DNA of 64,000 bases from Nonomuraea deserti (lineage in GTDB: Bacteria > Actinomycetota > Actinomycetes > Streptosporangiales > Streptosporangiaceae). A program made the translations under genes and the position numbers. Shown piece after piece: positions 4,477 to 11,691 of this stretch (positions within the stretch are counted from its first letter, which is position 1; every line of letters starts with the position of its first letter). Where the stretch lies: positions 62,001 to 126,000 of the forward strand of contig NZ_SMKO01000006.1 in NCBI RefSeq assembly GCF_004348685.1, given 5' to 3'. Below the pieces are notes generated by a model that searched no databases, was not told the DNA's origin, and saw only the letters and a list, made by a program, of their open reading frames with translations.

Positions 4477-4556
4477 GGGAGCCCGAATGGGGCTTAACAC
4501 GCCGAATCGATTGATTATGGGTGGCATCGGTGCAGAATTTGCGGGATCCTGCACAA

Positions 4557-5018
4557 ATGACGAACGCGCCGGACGCCAGGCCGCTGGATGACGTGGACCG
4601 TGCCCTGATCGCCGCCATCCAGACCGACGGTCGCGCGACCCTGGCCAGGCTCGCCGAGATCATCCAGCTCAGCGTCTCGGCCACGCGGATCCGGCTGCGC
4701 GCGTTGGAGGATCAGGGAGTCATCGGGGACTATCGCGCCCGCGTCGAACCCGAAGCCCTGGGCTACACCCTGCGCGCGATCGTCCGGATGAAGGTCCACG
4801 GTTCCCTGTACGACAAGGTCACGGCCATTCTGGCCGGCCAACCGCAGATCGTGCGCTGCCTGCGCGTCACGGGAGAGTCCTGCTACGTGATGGAGATCGT
4901 CGCCACCGGCATGAGCGACCTCGAGCAGATCACCTCCGAACTCGCCCGGGTCGGCTCCATCACCACGGACCTGGTCTACGAGATGGTCGTCGACCGCCCC
5001 GTCCCCCTGCGCACATGA
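4557..5018 (+). CDS. Lrp/AsnC-family transcriptional regulator
   Basis: About 153 residues from ATG 4557 (MTNAPDARPLDDVDRALIAAI); an in-frame GTG at 4521 would add 12 residues. Residues about 10-60 form the AsnC-type helix-turn-helix (ATLARLAEIIQLSVSATRIRLRALEDQGVI). The rest is the RAM ligand-binding and oligomerisation domain. These regulators sense amino acids or related metabolites. Being divergent from phzF and the deaminase, it probably controls them, which hints that the pair acts on an amino-acid-like compound. Neither start has a strong ribosome site. Confidence 0.88.
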   Translation: MTNAPDARPLDDVDRALIAAIQTDGRATLARLAEIIQLSVSATRIRLRALEDQGVIGDYRARVEPEALGYTLRAIVRMKVHGSLYDKVTAILAGQPQIVRCLRVTGESCYVMEIVATGMSDLEQITSELARVGSITTDLVYEMVVDRPVPLRT

Positions 5019-5254
5019 CGCCGGCGCCGGTGGCTCCCGGGTGCTCCGGCGTCGTACGGCCGAGCGGTCCCAGCGGGAGCGACTCCGCGACGCCACGTCG
5101 ATGAGGCCCGCCGGGCTGTGCATGCCCTGCGCCACCTCCCTGATCGCCGCCGCGGCGATCGCACGGGCCCGGCCCGCGGCCTGCTGCACGCCCTGACGCC
5201 GGCGGGCGGGTTGCACGATCACCTCACCCGTCCAAGAAGCTTGTCGCGTCTCCG
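5019..5254. other. Intergenic region without a recognisable gene
   Basis: GC-rich spacer between the Lrp gene and the operator of the ribbon-helix-helix operon. Reading frames exist on both strands but none has a recognisable start, ribosome site or family match. Confidence 0.5.
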
Positions 5255-5320
5255 TGACGCCATGGTGGCCACGCTTGACCGTTGCCATGGCGTCATAACG
5301 GTGTCATTATGACGCCATGG
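5255..5320 (+). promoter_or_regulatory. Palindromic operator over a leaderless promoter
   Basis: CCATGGCGTCATAA (5285-5298) and TTATGACGCCATGG (5307-5320) form a perfect 14-base inverted repeat around 8 bases. A further half-site, TGACGCCATGG, lies at 5255-5265. Within the repeat, TTGCCA (5282-5287), 17 bases, CATTAT (5305-5310) and six bases lead to the ATG at 5317, so the right arm contains the start codon of a leaderless gene. A protein bound here would block polymerase and cover the start. Confidence 0.8.
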
Positions 5321-5847
5321 ACCTTGCGCCGTATGTCGATCACCTCCGCCGCGAGCTCGCCATCGCTGCCGGGGCGGGCGGCGAGGAAGCACGCGCGCTG
5401 GCGGAACGTCTCGCCGCGACGCTCGAGTCGGCCACCCGGCTCGCGCTGTTGGAGGCTCTGTCAGCCGCCGCGGACGAGATCACCCAGGACCTCGCACCAG
5501 GCTCTGTCGAGGTGCGCCTGCGCGGGCGCGACCCCGCTTTCGTCGTGACGCCACCGCCGGGCGCCCGTTCGATCGAGGAGGGAGGCGAGATCGGGCAGGC
5601 CGAGGGGCCGTCCGCCCCGTTGCCACCCCCCGACGTCGATGACGGCGGTACGTCCCGGATCTCGCTCCGCGTCCCCGAGCACCTCAAACCGCGCATCGAG
5701 GAGGCGGCCGCCCGGGACGGGCTGTCGGTCAACGCCTGGCTGGTCCGGGCCGTTTCCGCCGCTCTCCATCCCGGTGACGCCGGTCGCCGCTCCGGCCGGC
5801 GCCCGGCTCAGCAGGCCGGCAACCGCTACAGCGGCTGGGTGCGCTGA
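5317..5847 (+). CDS. Ribbon-helix-helix (Arc/HicB-type) DNA-binding protein
   Basis: 176 residues. The first half is helical (LRRELAIAAGAGGEEARALAERL); a proline-rich linker follows; residues about 110-150 match a ribbon-helix-helix domain (RISLRVPEHLKPRIEEAAARDGLSVNAWLVRAV), the fold of Arc and of HicB-type antitoxins. No HicA-like toxin is beside it, so the antitoxin label would mislead here. It is the first gene of a four-gene operon and overlaps the DUF4097 gene by one base (TGATG). The palindrome over its start suggests autoregulation. Translation starts at the ATG inside the right palindrome arm. Confidence 0.85.
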   Translation: MDLAPYVDHLRRELAIAAGAGGEEARALAERLAATLESATRLALLEALSAAADEITQDLAPGSVEVRLRGRDPAFVVTPPPGARSIEEGGEIGQAEGPSAPLPPPDVDDGGTSRISLRVPEHLKPRIEEAAARDGLSVNAWLVRAVSAALHPGDAGRRSGRRPAQQAGNRYSGWVR

Positions 5848-6785
5848 TGACCATGCCAACTCACGACGAGGGGACCGCCGTGCCGACGTTCGACACCCCC
5901 GAACCCATCGCCGCCGTCATCGACATGGCGACCGCCACCATCCGGATCAACGCGAGTGACCGCGCCGACACCGTCGTCGACGTCCGCCCGAGCGACCGGC
6001 TCAACGACGCCGACGTGCGAGCCGCCGAGCACACCGAGGCCGAGTACGCCGACGGCCGGCTCCTCGTACGGACCGACAGGGAGTACGCCGGCTTGACCTC
6101 CGGCTGGGGCCTCTCGCTCGACAGACTCGTCGAGTCGCCCGCGAGCTGGGCACGTTCGCTGCTGCACGGCCCCGGCTCGGTCGACTTGACGATCGACCTG
6201 CCGGCCGGCTCCCGCCTCGACGCGAGGACGGCGGCGGCCGTCCTGTGCCGGGGACCGCTCGGCGAGGTGACGATCGCCACCTCCCACGGGGACATCCGGG
6301 TCGAGCAAGCCGGCCGGCTACGGCTGAAGAGCACCTACGGCGACATCTCGGTCACCCGCGCGACCGGGCACGCGGAGGTCACCACCACCCACGGCGGCAT
6401 CCACATCGGCGAGATCAACGGCACCGCCGCGGTCAAGACCTCCCACGGCGACGTCCGCCTCCGCGAGGTGACGGGCGAGCTGCGGCTGAACAGCGCCCAC
6501 GGCGACATGACCGTGGACCGCGCCCTGGCCGGCGTCGCTGTCAAGACCGCGTACGCCAGCGTGGAGATCGGCGAGGTGGTGTCCGGCTCGATCACCATGG
6601 AGACCACCGGCGGCGGCCTGGATCTCGGGATCCGGGACGGCACCGCCGCCTGGCTGGACGTGAGCTCCAGGTACGGCACCGTGGACGTCTCCCTCGACCC
6701 CAGCGACGTCCCCGCCGAGACGGACCAGGTCGTCGAGGTGCGGGCCCACACCACCCACGGCGACATCGTCATCCACCGTTCCTGA
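5847..6785 (+). CDS. DUF4097 beta-strand-repeat protein
   Basis: 312 residues with no signal peptide or membrane helix. From about residue 110 onward there are seven or so repeats built on a T/SxHGDIxV/I core (ATSHGDIRV, KSTYGDISV, TTTHGGIHI, KTSHGDVRL, NSAHGDMTV, TTHGDIVI), as expected of the right-handed parallel beta-helix of DUF4097/putative adhesins. Biochemical function is unknown for the family. It is translationally coupled to the ribbon-helix-helix gene and 14 bases ahead of the ABC ATPase, so it probably senses or scaffolds something connected to that exporter. Confidence 0.85.
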   Translation: MTMPTHDEGTAVPTFDTPEPIAAVIDMATATIRINASDRADTVVDVRPSDRLNDADVRAAEHTEAEYADGRLLVRTDREYAGLTSGWGLSLDRLVESPASWARSLLHGPGSVDLTIDLPAGSRLDARTAAAVLCRGPLGEVTIATSHGDIRVEQAGRLRLKSTYGDISVTRATGHAEVTTTHGGIHIGEINGTAAVKTSHGDVRLREVTGELRLNSAHGDMTVDRALAGVAVKTAYASVEIGEVVSGSITMETTGGGLDLGIRDGTAAWLDVSSRYGTVDVSLDPSDVPAETDQVVEVRAHTTHGDIVIHRS

Positions 6786-6799
6786 CAAAGGAGATCCCC

Positions 6800-7765
6800 A
6801 TGCCCGACGCGATCGTGGCCGAAGGACTGATCAAGAAGTACGGCGACGTGGCCGCCCTCGACGGGATGGACCTGACCGTTCCCGAGGGAACGGTGTTCGG
6901 GCTGCTCGGCCCGAACGGCGCCGGCAAGACCACCACCGTGCGAATCCTCACCACGCTGCTCAAGCCGGACGCGGGGCACGCCACGGTGGCCGGATTCGAC
7001 GTCGTCCGCGACGCGCCCCGGCTGCGCGCCCGCATCGGCGCCTCCGGCCAGTACGCCGCCGTCGACGACCACCTCACCGGCGCCGAGAACCTGGAGATGG
7101 TCGGCCGCCTCTACCACCTGGGCGCCAGGCAGAGCCGGCAGCGCGCCCGCGAGCTGCTGGAGCGCTTCGACCTGACGGACGCGGCCGAGCGCCCCGTGCA
7201 GGGCTACTCCGGCGGCATGCGACGCCGCCTCGACCTGGCCGGCGCCCTGGTCGCCAACCCGCCCGTGTTGTTCCTCGACGAGCCCACGACCGGTCTCGAC
7301 CCCCGGGCCAGGATCGCCCTGTGGGACGTCATCGCCGAGCTCGTCGCCGAGGGCACGACGGTCCTGCTCACCACCCAGTACCTGGAGGAGGCCGACCGGC
7401 TCGCCGATCGCATCGCGGTGGTCGACCACGGGCGCGTGATCGCGCTCGGCACCGCCGACGAGCTGAAGGACCAGGTCGGCGGCGACCGGATCCAGCTGTC
7501 GGTGACGGACGCGGCGAACCTGGAGAGCGCCGCCAGGACGCTGGCGCCGCTGGCCCTCGGGGACATGCAGATCGACTCCGCCGCCCTGCGGGTGACGATC
7601 CCGGTGACCGGCGGCGCGGCCGCACTGACCCAGGCGCTCGGCCACCTCGCCGCCGAGCGGATCACCGTACGCGATGCCGGCCTGCGCCGGCCGACCCTGG
7701 ACGACGTGTTCCTGAGCCTCACGGGACACCAGGCCGATGAGAAGACCAAGGAGACCGTGCGATGA
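6800..7765 (+). CDS. ABC transporter ATP-binding protein, DrrA-like
   Basis: 321 residues from ATG 6800 behind AAAGGAG. Walker A GPNGAGKTT (near residue 38), Q-loop region, signature YSGGMRRR (near 137), Walker B LFLDEPTTGLDPR and a switch H-loop region (LLTTQYLEEADRLAD) are intact. The approximately 80-residue C-terminal extension is typical of DrrA/CcmA-type drug or lipid exporters. It overlaps the permease gene by four bases (ATGA), and the pair should form a half-size export complex at the membrane. Substrate unknown; self-resistance or envelope-lipid export are the usual roles. Confidence 0.93.
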   Translation: MPDAIVAEGLIKKYGDVAALDGMDLTVPEGTVFGLLGPNGAGKTTTVRILTTLLKPDAGHATVAGFDVVRDAPRLRARIGASGQYAAVDDHLTGAENLEMVGRLYHLGARQSRQRARELLERFDLTDAAERPVQGYSGGMRRRLDLAGALVANPPVLFLDEPTTGLDPRARIALWDVIAELVAEGTTVLLTTQYLEEADRLADRIAVVDHGRVIALGTADELKDQVGGDRIQLSVTDAANLESAARTLAPLALGDMQIDSAALRVTIPVTGGAAALTQALGHLAAERITVRDAGLRRPTLDDVFLSLTGHQADEKTKETVR

Positions 7766-8565
7766 ACGCCCTGCAGCTTGCCGCCGCCGACGGCATGACG
7801 ATCGCCAAGCGCAACGCCCTGAAGATCCGCAGAGCCCCCGACCTGCTGGGCGGTGTGATCATCCTCCCCATCGTGTTCGTGCTGCTCTTCACCTACGTCT
7901 TCGGCAGCATGATCAGCCTGCCCGGCATGTCGTACGCGGAATACCTGCTCCCCGGCATCTTCGTCATGACGATCACCTCGAGCGCGCAGATCACCGGCTA
8001 CACCTTGACGCAGGACCTGCAGAAGGGCATCTTCGACCGGTTCAGGACACTGCCGATGTCGCCCTCGGCGGTGCTCACCGGCCAGACCATCAGCGATGTC
8101 ATCATGAACGTGACCAGCATCGTCACGATGGCGCTCGTCGGGCTGCTCGCCGGGTGGCGCATCCACAGCTCGCTCTTCGAGGCCGCCCTCGGGTTCCTGA
8201 TGCTGCTGCTGTTCGCGTACGCCTTCTCCTGGGTGACGGCCACGGTCGCGCTGGCCCTGCGCACGCCCGAGGTCTTCAACAACGTCGCCACCATCATGTC
8301 GCTCCCGCTGGTCTTCCTGTCCAACGCCTTCGTCGACAGCGCGCGACTGCCCGGGCCGCTGAAGCCGATCGCCGAATGGAACCCGGTCTCCACACTTGTC
8401 CAGGCCGCACGCGAGCTGTTCGGGAACACCAGTCCGGCCATCCCCGTGCCCAGTGCCTGGCCGCTGCAGCATGCGGTGCCGGTGTCGCTGCTGTGGTCGG
8501 TACTGCTCCTGGTCGTGTTCGTGCCTCTGGCCACGCGGCTGTACAAGAGGGCCGTCAGTCAATGA
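7762..8565 (+). CDS. ABC-2-type permease, DrrB-like
   Basis: 267 residues with about six membrane helices (PDLLGGVIILPIVFVLLFTYVFG, YLLPGIFVMTITS, IVTMALVGLLAGW, LGFLMLLLFAYAF, VATIMSLPLVFLS, LLWSVLLLVVFVPLA). The NPVSTLVQAARELF motif near the end is characteristic of ABC-2/DrrB permeases. It is the last gene of the operon beginning at 5317 and forms the membrane half of the exporter with the preceding ATPase. Confidence 0.92.
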   Translation: MNALQLAAADGMTIAKRNALKIRRAPDLLGGVIILPIVFVLLFTYVFGSMISLPGMSYAEYLLPGIFVMTITSSAQITGYTLTQDLQKGIFDRFRTLPMSPSAVLTGQTISDVIMNVTSIVTMALVGLLAGWRIHSSLFEAALGFLMLLLFAYAFSWVTATVALALRTPEVFNNVATIMSLPLVFLSNAFVDSARLPGPLKPIAEWNPVSTLVQAARELFGNTSPAIPVPSAWPLQHAVPVSLLWSVLLLVVFVPLATRLYKRAVSQ

Positions 8566-8923
8566 ACCACCCGGCGGTCTCCGGTGAGAAGCGTGACAGA
8601 GCGGTGGAGCCGATCCGGGCGTCAATGGCTCCGGGAACCGGGCCTACCGAGGGGTGGCCGGTGCTCCCGCACCCCTCGGTGCGTCCCGCTCAGAGCCTCC
8701 GCACGTCCACGGAAGTCGATCCATCTGTTGTCATCCAGTGAAATTTTCACCTGCGCCGGCAGCGCGGCGTGGGCTCCGTGGCGGCGAAACTCCAGGCGGG
8801 AAGGTGTTTCGCCGGCCACGCCCAGCTCAGCAAGGCCGGCCCGCCTTGACGCCGGGTGAACGGTCGGATGTACTGCCCGGCAACGTACTCACCGAGTAGC
8901 CGGTACAGCTCCGCAAGGTGGAA
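8566..8923. other. Intergenic region after the exporter operon
   Basis: No gene supported. A palindrome GTGAAA-T-TTTCAC sits at 8738-8750. Minus-strand frames of about 60 codons exist but have no ribosome site or family resemblance. Confidence 0.45.
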
Positions 8924-8937
8924 TGTTAACGATAACA
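8924..8937. promoter_or_regulatory. LacI-type operator before the GH127 gene
   Basis: TGTTA-ACGA-TAACA, a perfect five-base inverted repeat, lies 27 bases before the glycosidase start. It has the AT-rich TGTTAnnnnTAACA form of LacI/GalR-family operators that control sugar-hydrolase genes in actinomycetes. The regulator is not encoded in this window. Confidence 0.65.
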
Positions 8938-8964
8938 CAACGTCTGGAAGCCAAGGGGTCCCGC

Positions 8965-11691
8965 ATGTCCTTGAGCCGTCGTCAGCTCCTTCAGGCCGCG
9001 GGTGCGACCGTCGCGCTCACGGCCGCCGGCCAGGTGGCCGGCGCGTCCCCCGCCCTGGCCGCACTCCCCTGGGCCAGAGCCGACATCGGCGTGTCGGCCT
9101 ACGCGTTCGACCTCGGCCAGGTGCGGCTGACCTCCGGCCGCCTGCTGGACAACCAGAACCGCACGCTGAACTACCTGCGCTTCGTCGATGTCGACCGGCT
9201 GCTGTACGTCTTCCGGGCCAACCACCGCCTGTCCACGAACGGCGCGGCGGCCAACGGGGGCTGGGACGCGCCGGGCTTCCCGTTCCGGTCCCACATGCAG
9301 GGCCATTTCCTGACGGCGTGGGCGCAGGCCTACGCCGTGCTCGGCGACACCGCCTGCCGGGACAAGGCCGACCACATGGTCGCCGAACTGGCCAGATGCC
9401 AGGCCAACAACGGCGCCGCCGGATTCGGCGCCGGCTACCTGTCCGGCTTTCCCGAGGCGGACATCACCGCCGTGGAGAACCGCACCCTGACCAACGGCAA
9501 CGTGCCCTACTACGCCATCCACAAGACCCTCGCCGGCCTGCTGGACGTGTGGCGGCTGATCGGCAACACGCAGGCCCGCACCGTGCTCCTCGCCCTGGCC
9601 GGATGGGTGGACACCCGCACGTCGCGGCTCGGCTCAAGCCAGATGCAGGCCATGCTCGGCACCGAGTTCGGCGGCATGAACGCCGTGCTGACGGACCTGT
9701 ACCAGATGACCGGCGACTCCCGCTGGCTGACCACGGCCCAGCGGTTCGACCACGCCGCCGTGTTCGACCCGCTGGCCGCCAACCAGGACCGCCTCAACGG
9801 GTTGCACGCCAACACCCAGGTGCCCAAGTGGATCGGGGCGGCGCGAGAGTACAAGGCGACCGGCACCACCCGTTACCGCGACATCGCCGCCAACGCCTGG
9901 TCCATCACCGTCGGCACGCACACGTACGCGAACGGCTCCAACAGCCAGGCCGAGCACTTCCGCGCCCCCAACGCGATCGCCGCCCACCTGACCAGGGACA
10001 CCGGCGAGGCCTGCAACACCTACAACATGCTCAAGCTGACCCGGGAGTTGTGGCTGCCGTCACCGACCCGGGCCGACTACTTCGACTACTACGAGAACGC
10101 CCTGCTCAACCACCTGATCGGGCAGCAGGATCCGGCCGACGCACACGGGCACGTCACCTACTTCACTCCCCTCAACCCGGGCGGGCGGCGGGGCGTCGGC
10201 CCGGCCTGGGGCGGCGGCACCTGGAGCACGGACTACGACTCCTTCTGGTGTTGCCAGGGCACCGGGATCGAGACCAACACCAAGCTGATGGACTCGATCT
10301 ACTTCCACAACGGCACCACCCTGTTCGTGAACCTGTTCGCGCCCTCCACACTCGAATGGAGCCAGCGCGGCATCACGGTCGCCCAGACCACCTCCTACCC
10401 GGCCGGCGACACCACGTCGCTGCGGGTCACGGGCGATGTGAGCGGGTCGTGGACGATGCGCATCCGCATCCCGGCCTGGACCCAGGGCGCGACCATCAGC
10501 GTCAACGGCGTGCAGCAGAACATCGCCACCACGCCGGGCACCTACGCCGACCTCACCCGATCGTGGAATTCGGGCGACACCGTCACCGTGCGGCTGCCCA
10601 TGCGGGTCATCATGGAGCCCGCCAACGACGACCCGAACGTGCAGGCCGTCACCTACGGCCCAGTCGTGTTGTCGGGCGACTACGGCAACACCGGCCTGTC
10701 GTCGGCCCCGGCCCTGACCGTCTCCTCGATCGCCCGGGCCGGCACCTCCTCCCTGGCCTTCACCGCCACCGCCAACGGGGCGGCGGTGCGGCTGGGGCCG
10801 TTCTACGACGCCCACGACCACAACTACGTCGTCTACTGGGACACCGGCGGTCAGGGCGGCGCCGGCGAGGCCACCTTCCGGCTGCTCAACGCGGCCAGCG
10901 GGCTGGCCCTCGGCATCCAGGACATGTCCACCGCCGACGGCGGCCTGGCCCTGCAGTGGACCGACAACGGAACCGCCGACCACGACTGGATCCCGGTCGT
11001 CGACGGCGGTGCCCTGCGGCTCCGCAACGCGCACAGCGGCAAGGTCCTCGGCGTCGAGAACATGTCCACCGCCGACAACGCCCGGGTGCTCCAGTGGGGC
11101 GACACCGGCACCGCCGACCACCGCTGGACAATCACGGACGCCGGCGACGGCTCCGTCAAGATCCGCAACGTCCACAGCTCCAAGCTGCTCGGGATCCAGA
11201 ACGGCTCGACCGCCAACGGCGCCCAGGCCGTCCAGGACTCCGACAACGGAAGCGCGGACAACCAGTGGCGGTTCCTGCCCAACGGCGCGCGGCGCATCCA
11301 GAACGTGGGCACCGGGATGGTGCTCGGCGTCAGCGACATGTCCACGGCCGACGGCGCGCTCGTCATCCAGTGGGGCGACACCGGCACCGCCGACCACCTG
11401 TGGACGGCGATCGTCGACACCGGCGGCTACCTGCGGCTGCGTAACTCCAACAGCCAGAAGGTGCTGGGCGTGGAGAACATGGGCACCGCCTCGGGGTCGC
11501 GTGCCGTGCAGTGGGCCGACAACGGCACCGCCGACCACCGCTGGCGGCTGCGCTACGGGTCGGCGGCCGCCTTCCGGATCCAGTGCGCCAACGGCGGCCG
11601 GGTCCTCGGCCTCGCCGGCACCTCCCAGGGCGCGCGGGTCGTGCTCGCCGACGACAACGGCACGAACACCAACCTCTGGAGGTTCCTGTGA
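8965..11691 (+). CDS. Secreted GH127-type beta-L-arabinofuranosidase with C-terminal ricin-type lectin domains
   Basis: 908 residues from ATG 8965 (AAGGGG upstream). The N-terminus MSLSRRQLLQAAG is a twin-arginine export signal. Residues about 45-600 match the DUF1680/GH127 family; the zinc site seen in characterised GH127 enzymes (Glu-x-Cys and Cys-Cys) appears as GEAC in DTGEACNTYNML and FWCCQG. The Cys pair includes the expected nucleophile. The last 270 residues hold two ricin-B/RICIN-like modules with repeats such as GLALGIQDMSTADGGLALQW and KVLGVENMSTADNARVLQW, which bind carbohydrate. It probably releases L-arabinose from plant polymers or glycoproteins outside the cell. Control by a sugar-responsive LacI regulator is likely. 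Confidence 0.9.
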   Translation: MSLSRRQLLQAAGATVALTAAGQVAGASPALAALPWARADIGVSAYAFDLGQVRLTSGRLLDNQNRTLNYLRFVDVDRLLYVFRANHRLSTNGAAANGGWDAPGFPFRSHMQGHFLTAWAQAYAVLGDTACRDKADHMVAELARCQANNGAAGFGAGYLSGFPEADITAVENRTLTNGNVPYYAIHKTLAGLLDVWRLIGNTQARTVLLALAGWVDTRTSRLGSSQMQAMLGTEFGGMNAVLTDLYQMTGDSRWLTTAQRFDHAAVFDPLAANQDRLNGLHANTQVPKWIGAAREYKATGTTRYRDIAANAWSITVGTHTYANGSNSQAEHFRAPNAIAAHLTRDTGEACNTYNMLKLTRELWLPSPTRADYFDYYENALLNHLIGQQDPADAHGHVTYFTPLNPGGRRGVGPAWGGGTWSTDYDSFWCCQGTGIETNTKLMDSIYFHNGTTLFVNLFAPSTLEWSQRGITVAQTTSYPAGDTTSLRVTGDVSGSWTMRIRIPAWTQGATISVNGVQQNIATTPGTYADLTRSWNSGDTVTVRLPMRVIMEPANDDPNVQAVTYGPVVLSGDYGNTGLSSAPALTVSSIARAGTSSLAFTATANGAAVRLGPFYDAHDHNYVVYWDTGGQGGAGEATFRLLNAASGLALGIQDMSTADGGLALQWTDNGTADHDWIPVVDGGALRLRNAHSGKVLGVENMSTADNARVLQWGDTGTADHRWTITDAGDGSVKIRNVHSSKLLGIQNGSTANGAQAVQDSDNGSADNQWRFLPNGARRIQNVGTGMVLGVSDMSTADGALVIQWGDTGTADHLWTAIVDTGGYLRLRNSNSQKVLGVENMGTASGSRAVQWADNGTADHRWRLRYGSAAAFRIQCANGGRVLGLAGTSQGARVVLADDNGTNTNLWRFL

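Follow-up and report, generated by a model that had tools for sequence, protein, structure and literature searches.

Phased 8-bp operator boxes over the predicted leaderless promoter of an actinomycete ribbon-helix-helix/toastrack operon

What is the regulatory element in front of the gene for a small ribbon-helix-helix (RHH) protein in Nonomuraea deserti, and which protein is likely to bind it? We analyzed a 64,000-nucleotide stretch of this genome (the window; contig NZ_SMKO01000006.1, positions 62,001 to 126,000), in which a first-pass annotation had pointed to a perfect inverted repeat covering the promoter and start codon of a putative operon. The first gene of this operon encodes the RHH protein, referred to here as P0001 (176 amino acids; 5317..5847, + strand), and is followed by genes for a DUF4097/toastrack protein and a DrrAB-like ATP-binding cassette (ABC) exporter. 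Comparison of homologous promoters gave a different answer from the one first proposed: the conserved unit is a row of short boxes repeated every 11 bp. The gene set is not new; the regulatory device in front of it is real, widely conserved, and built differently than the annotation saw. Of 394 genomes sampled from the class, 121 contained relatives of the regulator.

Our comparison covered 168 loci, namely, the window, the best 80 of 108 relatives, and 87 loci from a class search, for which 60 places were chosen manually to widen the spread and not at random. These loci encode 167 distinct proteins (81 near and 86 further), with closely related or resampled genomes still present among them. 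When the promoters of the 167 homologues were aligned on the start codon, three tandem boxes with the nearly self-complementary 8-bp consensus TGRYGYCA appeared at −29, −18, and −7, that is, at a pitch of 11 bp with 3 bp between neighboring boxes. In the window, all on the + strand, box 1 (TGGCGTCA, 5288..5295) lies within the left arm of the inverted repeat, box 2 (CGGTGTCA, 5299..5306) matches the consensus in 7 of 8 positions, and the final A of box 3 (TGACGCCA, 5310..5317) is the A of the start codon. At these fixed places, at least 7 of 8 positions were matched by box 1 in 127/167 loci, by box 2 in 145/167, and by box 3 in 132/167. Allowing a shift of 1 bp gave 155/167, 159/167, and 132/167, respectively, and with this tolerance all three boxes reached at least 6/8 in 150/167 loci; box 1 stood one base further upstream in 29/167. 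The background just upstream, scored as 7/8 of the looser consensus TGRYRYCA, was 5.4% per fixed and 16.0% per shifted place, in a region that itself holds real boxes. The looser form had also served in a first box scoring, where box 1 was taken as the best of three adjacent places, and was used to count boxes further upstream.

Between −100 and −38, the 168 promoters contained 157 perfect boxes of this looser form, 149 of which fell in five of the eleven possible phases around box 1. Counted modulo 11 relative to box 1, there were 54 boxes in phase 0, 41 in phase 10, 26 in phase 9, 21 in phase 1, 7 in phase 2, and 4 each in phases 3 and 8, with no perfect upstream box in phases 4 to 7. The counts peaked near −51, −62, −73, and −84 (21 boxes at −51, 20 at −62, and 19 at −50), and no perfect box in these promoters began within the turn that precedes the −35 element (−48 to −38). 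The window carries one such upstream box, TGACGCCA, at 5255..5262 (+), which starts at −62 and thus lies 33 bp, or three 11-bp steps, 5′ of box 1. A stacked row of dimers would require such same-face spacing to be kept up for several turns. A two-box scan of the organism's own genome found no second array above control (7 rows versus 6 in the control, 2 of the 7 being the present operator), and a wider regulon in this genome was rejected on that ground.

The three promoter-proximal boxes overlap the −35/−10 region and the start codon. A consensus scan of positions 5000 to 9000 gave TTGCCA-17-CATTAT at 5282-5310 as the sole promoter-like site, with the −35 element TTGCCA at 5282..5287 (+), the −10 element CATTAT, preceded by TG, at 5305..5310 (+), and a predicted transcript start at 5317. 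The −10 element thus ends 6 bp before the ATG, with no Shine-Dalgarno sequence. This geometry recurs across the 167 loci: the start codon is ATG in 166 and GTG in 1, A at −11 together with T at −7 is found in 153, 157 have TTG somewhere between −38 and −32, and only 1 has a tetramer resembling a Shine-Dalgarno sequence. Since this pattern agrees with the +1 position predicted by the scan, a leaderless start at 5317, which the first-pass annotation had also supposed, is strongly indicated in silico.

The protein that binds the boxes is very probably P0001 itself, judging from its predicted fold and from covariation with the operator. Profile matches to AtaR, Arc, Mnt, and AmrZ over residues 105 to 155 (E values of 0.0018 to 0.05) assign it to the RHH superfamily, and RHH chains were recovered at Z scores of 3.9 to 5.0 in a fold comparison. 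An AlphaFold2 model based on 98 sequences (mean pLDDT of 81, compared with 65 for an earlier, poor model that preceded the deeper alignment) shows helices at 4-19 and 23-59, a hairpin at 63-69/72-78, a low-confidence linker, and the RHH helices at 121-134 and 138-150. The protein is thus predicted to consist of a helix-helix-hairpin part (residues ∼4 to 78), a linker, and an RHH domain (∼111 to 150), whose strand remained unassigned in the monomer model, as would be anticipated if its pairing requires the dimer. Both arginines of this strand, R114-x-116-x-R118, are invariant in the 98 sequences, and structural and profile alignments mark R114, S116, and R118 as the predicted contact residues. 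The profile alignment lays the strand on Q9-F10-N11-L12-R13 of Arc, with residue 116 on N11, which in Arc contacts bases. Structurally, residues 112 to 159 align without gaps on AmrZ 16 to 63 (Z 4.9, rmsd 3.9, 48 residues aligned), and residues 114, 116, and 118 fall on AmrZ Lys18, Val20, and Arg22, which belong to its DNA-binding sheet according to the part of PMC3325190 that describes it.

Residue 116 covaries with the third base of the box half-site. In 150 loci (17 of the 167 were excluded because at least one of boxes 1 and 2 scored less than 6/8, several of them with a box 2 that was only displaced by 1 bp), this base is A in 80% with Thr at residue 116 (55 loci), A in 64% with Ser (51 loci), and G in 92% with Asn (44 loci). 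Among 140 variable protein columns, column 116 was the best predictor of box composition (R2 of 0.74), followed by column 169 (R2 of 0.56). GC content of the locus does not explain the relation, with group means of 0.712, 0.707, and 0.719 and a partial correlation given GC of −0.83. Position 169 lies in the C-terminal tail of P0001, which in A1 and A3 ends in a conserved GWVR-type motif. Five loci (L174, L177, L179, L183, and L188), four of which are included in the residue-116 count, combine the strand RTTLR with TGACACCA/TGGTGTCA-type boxes, which hints at an influence of residue 115, or of its context, on the box center as well.

We consider it likely, from this sequence comparison, that P0001 is a dedicated autorepressor that stacks on the phased boxes over its leaderless promoter and silences its own operon. 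Each RHH dimer would insert a two-stranded β-ribbon into the major groove of one 8-bp TGRYGYCA box, and the ∼11-bp spacing would put successive dimers on the same helix face. Binding is therefore probably cooperative, in the form of a short filament that runs from the promoter spacer across the −10 element to the start codon, and further dimers would sit upstream of the −35 element. Bound P0001 would exclude RNA polymerase from the promoter and would thereby silence the P0001 gene, the toastrack partner, and, where present, the DrrAB-like exporter. Release could be brought about by a signal received at the N-terminal domain, possibly linked to the cell envelope or to toxic compounds, or by the toastrack partner acting on P0001.

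Several observations weigh against this reading. Box 3 fell below 7/8 in 35/167 loci and is degenerate in many Actinomadura-type loci that retain boxes 1 and 2. Four loci in which the regulator stands without DUF4097 (L101, L111, L159, and L079) have lost one box each, or nearly so. A Foldseek search with P0001 returned no match at an E value of ≤0.001, and activation in place of repression is compatible with the same sequences. Finally, the link between residue 116 and the boxes is weakened by relatedness in this sample. The residue is clustered by lineage, with 7 parsimony changes to or from Asn on a tree of the N-terminal domain, and independent contrasts reduced the correlation to an r of −0.22 (t of −2.78, 149 contrasts), so that the covariation bearing on DNA contact through alternating β-strand residues is weak after this correction. 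In all 19 Asn clades (19/19), A/T is lower than in the closest relatives without Asn; the clades do not count as 19 separate events, because 14 of them share a single comparator (L095, from Streptomyces) and the tree has several unsupported nodes. L095 itself, which carries Ser among Asn relatives, scores 2/4 for A/T in boxes 1 and 2, and among the 15 closest Asn relatives listed for it, the score is 0 in 12, 1 in two, and 2 in one (L078). This comparison is suggestive of a residue-116 code, no more.

If activation is allowed for, P0001 might be a dual regulator that activates from the upstream boxes, while the boxes overlapping the promoter limit expression. The upstream boxes near −51, −62, and −73 are in phase with the promoter, as such a role would favor, and AmrZ, as far as PMC3325190 describes it, is an RHH protein with activating as well as repressing roles. 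However, boxes 1 to 3 cover the −35/−10 region and the start codon, which is a repressing position, and the upstream boxes vary more in place than do boxes 1 and 2. We regard dual regulation as unlikely.

The weak contrasts and the few changes at residue 116 also leave some room for a different regulator that binds the boxes, with the correlation reflecting shared ancestry; that other columns, such as 169, correlate too points in the same direction. Against this, the best of the 140 columns is the aligned DNA-contact position, and its correlation survives the control for GC. In addition, each of the eight regulator genes without DUF4097 retains two or more boxes, and no other array rose above control in the own genome. 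These points make a foreign binder quite improbable, and autorepression by P0001 remains the reading that we prefer.

Very little, in our view, speaks for P0001 being the antitoxin in a toxin-antitoxin pair of the HicAB kind. Pfam family PF05534 (HicB) matches P0001 barely above its cut-off (21.5 versus 21 bits) and matches 92 of the 98 homologues at E values of up to 0.01. Besides RHH-type families, no Pfam family matched more than 2 of the 98 members, and P0001 gave no NCBIfam match above cut-off. However, the HicB match is limited to profile positions 20 to 50, that is, to the C-terminal RHH part, and does not cover the N-terminal half, which is predicted as helix-helix-hairpin; the usual neighbor is DUF4097. 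A scan of five proteins of the window gave no match to HicA. Within the 98 sequences, the N-terminal part shows conservation, for example, at V64, R67, L68, and G70, and is a candidate for signal reception or partner docking. When it was compared with solved structures by sequence search, TAL-effector repeats and apolipoprotein A-IV were retrieved in one search and apolipoprotein A-IV alone in another, which we judged to be chance matches of helices. Fold comparison of the P0001 model, which was used whole without folding the N-terminal domain alone, aligned residues ∼1 to 83 with SMC/Rad50-type coiled coils (Z 5.0 to 5.5, rmsd 4.2 to 5.8, 79 to 83 residues aligned); such matches are uninformative for long helices, and we make no claim of a new fold.

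The inverted repeat that first drew attention to this locus is exact: CCATGGCGTCATAA (5285-5298) and TTATGACGCCATGG (5307-5320) are complementary in 14/14 positions with 8 bases between them, and the ATG at 5317 does lie inside the right arm. With up to 3 mismatches, the full pattern occurs once in the window and in none of 100 shuffles, and a shorter core at the same tolerance finds, in the 10.69-Mb genome, the present site and one site with 3 mismatches, each on both strands, with no match for the reversed pattern. Conservation of the arms in aligned promoters, by which the first-pass annotation had proposed to check its palindrome, was nevertheless not observed. Arm complementarity averages 8.42/14 across the 167 loci, compared with 8.18 when arms are swapped between loci, and symmetry of 14/14 is confined to the window (1/167 loci); the boxes are conserved instead. 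Since the arms match hardly better than this control and the supposed loop of 8 bases is exactly the conserved box 2, the perfect arms of the window give next to no credence to a single extended palindrome as the functional element, whether occupied by one pair of dimers or folded into a cruciform. In sequence terms, the 14-bp symmetry is real but is neither a conserved nor a functional unit; it is a by-product of two nearly palindromic boxes, 1 and 3, whose flanks are alike by chance. Similarly, TGACGCCATGG does recur at 5255-5265, where a third half-site had been placed 30 bases upstream, as one upstream box of the in-phase array rather than as a half-site. The placement of an operator over promoter and start codon therefore stood in silico, with tandem 8-bp boxes at an 11-bp pitch in place of a palindrome with a loop, and covariation of residue 116 with the box base supports the RHH protein as the binder that had been proposed.

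The four-gene order described for the window was also recovered. P0002 (5847..6785, +) begins at an ATG at 5847 or at a GTG at 5880 with GAGGGG upstream and matches the DUF4097/toastrack family PF13349 over residues 24 to 309 (61.2 bits, gathering threshold 22.9); it scored 21.9 bits against a cut-off of 285 for the LiaG model NF049997 and is thus not assigned to LiaG. Hydropathy revealed no membrane segment in P0002, and among homologous open reading frames (ORFs), 1 of 133 reaches a value of at least 1.6. The exporter ATPase (6800..7765, +), with AAGGAG upstream, scores above the DrrA cut-off (TIGR01188, 368.5 versus 312.45 bits). The permease (7762..8565, +) remains below that of DrrB (TIGR01247, 68.5 versus 223.05 bits) and belongs to the wider ABC-2 family PF01061 (92.7 versus 26.9 bits). 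Directly upstream of the operon lies an Lrp/AsnC-family regulator gene on the same strand (4521-5018, +), and downstream lies a 922-amino-acid ORF (8923-11691, +) whose first codons, MSLSRRQLLQAA, resemble a twin-arginine export signal.

Gene content was scored in 141 loci, leaving out 27 loci with short flanks (L119 to L145). DUF4097 lies downstream of the regulator in 132 of the 141, whereas DrrA and DrrB are both present in 60 of 76 near and 20 of 55 more distant loci for which 4 kb or more of sequence was available downstream. As judged from these counts, the core is the regulator with its operator, followed by the toastrack partner and then an optional exporter; of the compact four-gene unit claimed at first, the RHH-DUF4097 core thus holds, and DrrAB is accessory. 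A TGATG-type overlap of the RHH stop and DUF4097 start codons was found in 30/132 loci only, and because the DUF4097 start is also uncertain, we do not claim translational coupling. DUF4097 is missing from nine loci, in one case (L151) only through a contig end. Among the eight true absences, all three boxes match in at least 7/8 positions in L044, L050, L052, and L096, and two boxes are kept in L079, L101, L111, and L159. In the former four (at 5001), the regulator stands with neither DUF4097 nor exporter, and L111 has two regulator paralogues ∼4.4 kb apart (at 5001 and ∼9380), the first of which keeps boxes 1 and 3 without box 2.

A wider reading, to which we give only tentative weight and which we think rather less than probable, would make this arrangement a class-wide one-component envelope-stress switch of Actinomycetes. 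An RHH filament with one dimer per turn over the leaderless promoter would be dismantled by the cotranscribed cytosolic toastrack β-helix, acting as both sensor and antirepressor; the same array would control exporters appended in particular lineages, and a single β-strand residue would rewrite operator specificity. The operator and the proposed residue-base code make targets predictable. If the residue-116 code is true, a Ser-to-Asn swap should shift preference between TGACGTCA and TGGCGCCA boxes. The operator also gives a handle on toastrack function, which PMC11237479, in the part concerned with it, treats as a proposal, and the loci supply a natural set of promoters, predicted to be leaderless, in which the start codon itself belongs to the operator.

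How does this system compare with known ones? Section 27 of PMC11237479 (mSystems 2024) describes an actinobacterial operon in which an RHH regulator, in place of GntR, stands beside Toastrack (DUF4097), an ABC ATPase, and a permease, and the present gene set is probably the same as or overlaps with that one. The module is thus not undescribed as a gene set, contrary to what was first supposed. That section gives the RHH variant one sentence, with no operator, promoter, or residue-base code, and it calls the Toastrack protein of the parallel GntR-type operon membrane anchored, in contrast to the hydropathy found for the homologous ORFs here. A search of the open-access literature, which leaves most subscription papers outside, turned up no account of the array of boxes, of the way they are phased, of the leaderless promoter geometry, or of a residue-116 code.

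The exporter resembles the DrrAB drug exporters in its ATPase and ABC-2 permease but differs from them in the low DrrB score and in being missing from many sister loci. With Arc, Mnt, AmrZ, and AtaR/KacA-type RHH proteins, P0001 shares a sequence and structure match over residues ∼110 to 159 and the same β-strand contact pattern; it differs in its additional N-terminal domain of ∼80 residues and in an operator layout that we did not find described for them. The operator resembles that of MetJ of E. coli, a member of the RHH class for which tandem 8-bp boxes are known, so that the kind of operator is known and the present layout is a variant of it. MET boxes abut, whereas the TGRYGYCA boxes described here are separated by 3-bp spacers at an 11-bp pitch, recur upstream of the −35 element, and extend into the start codon.
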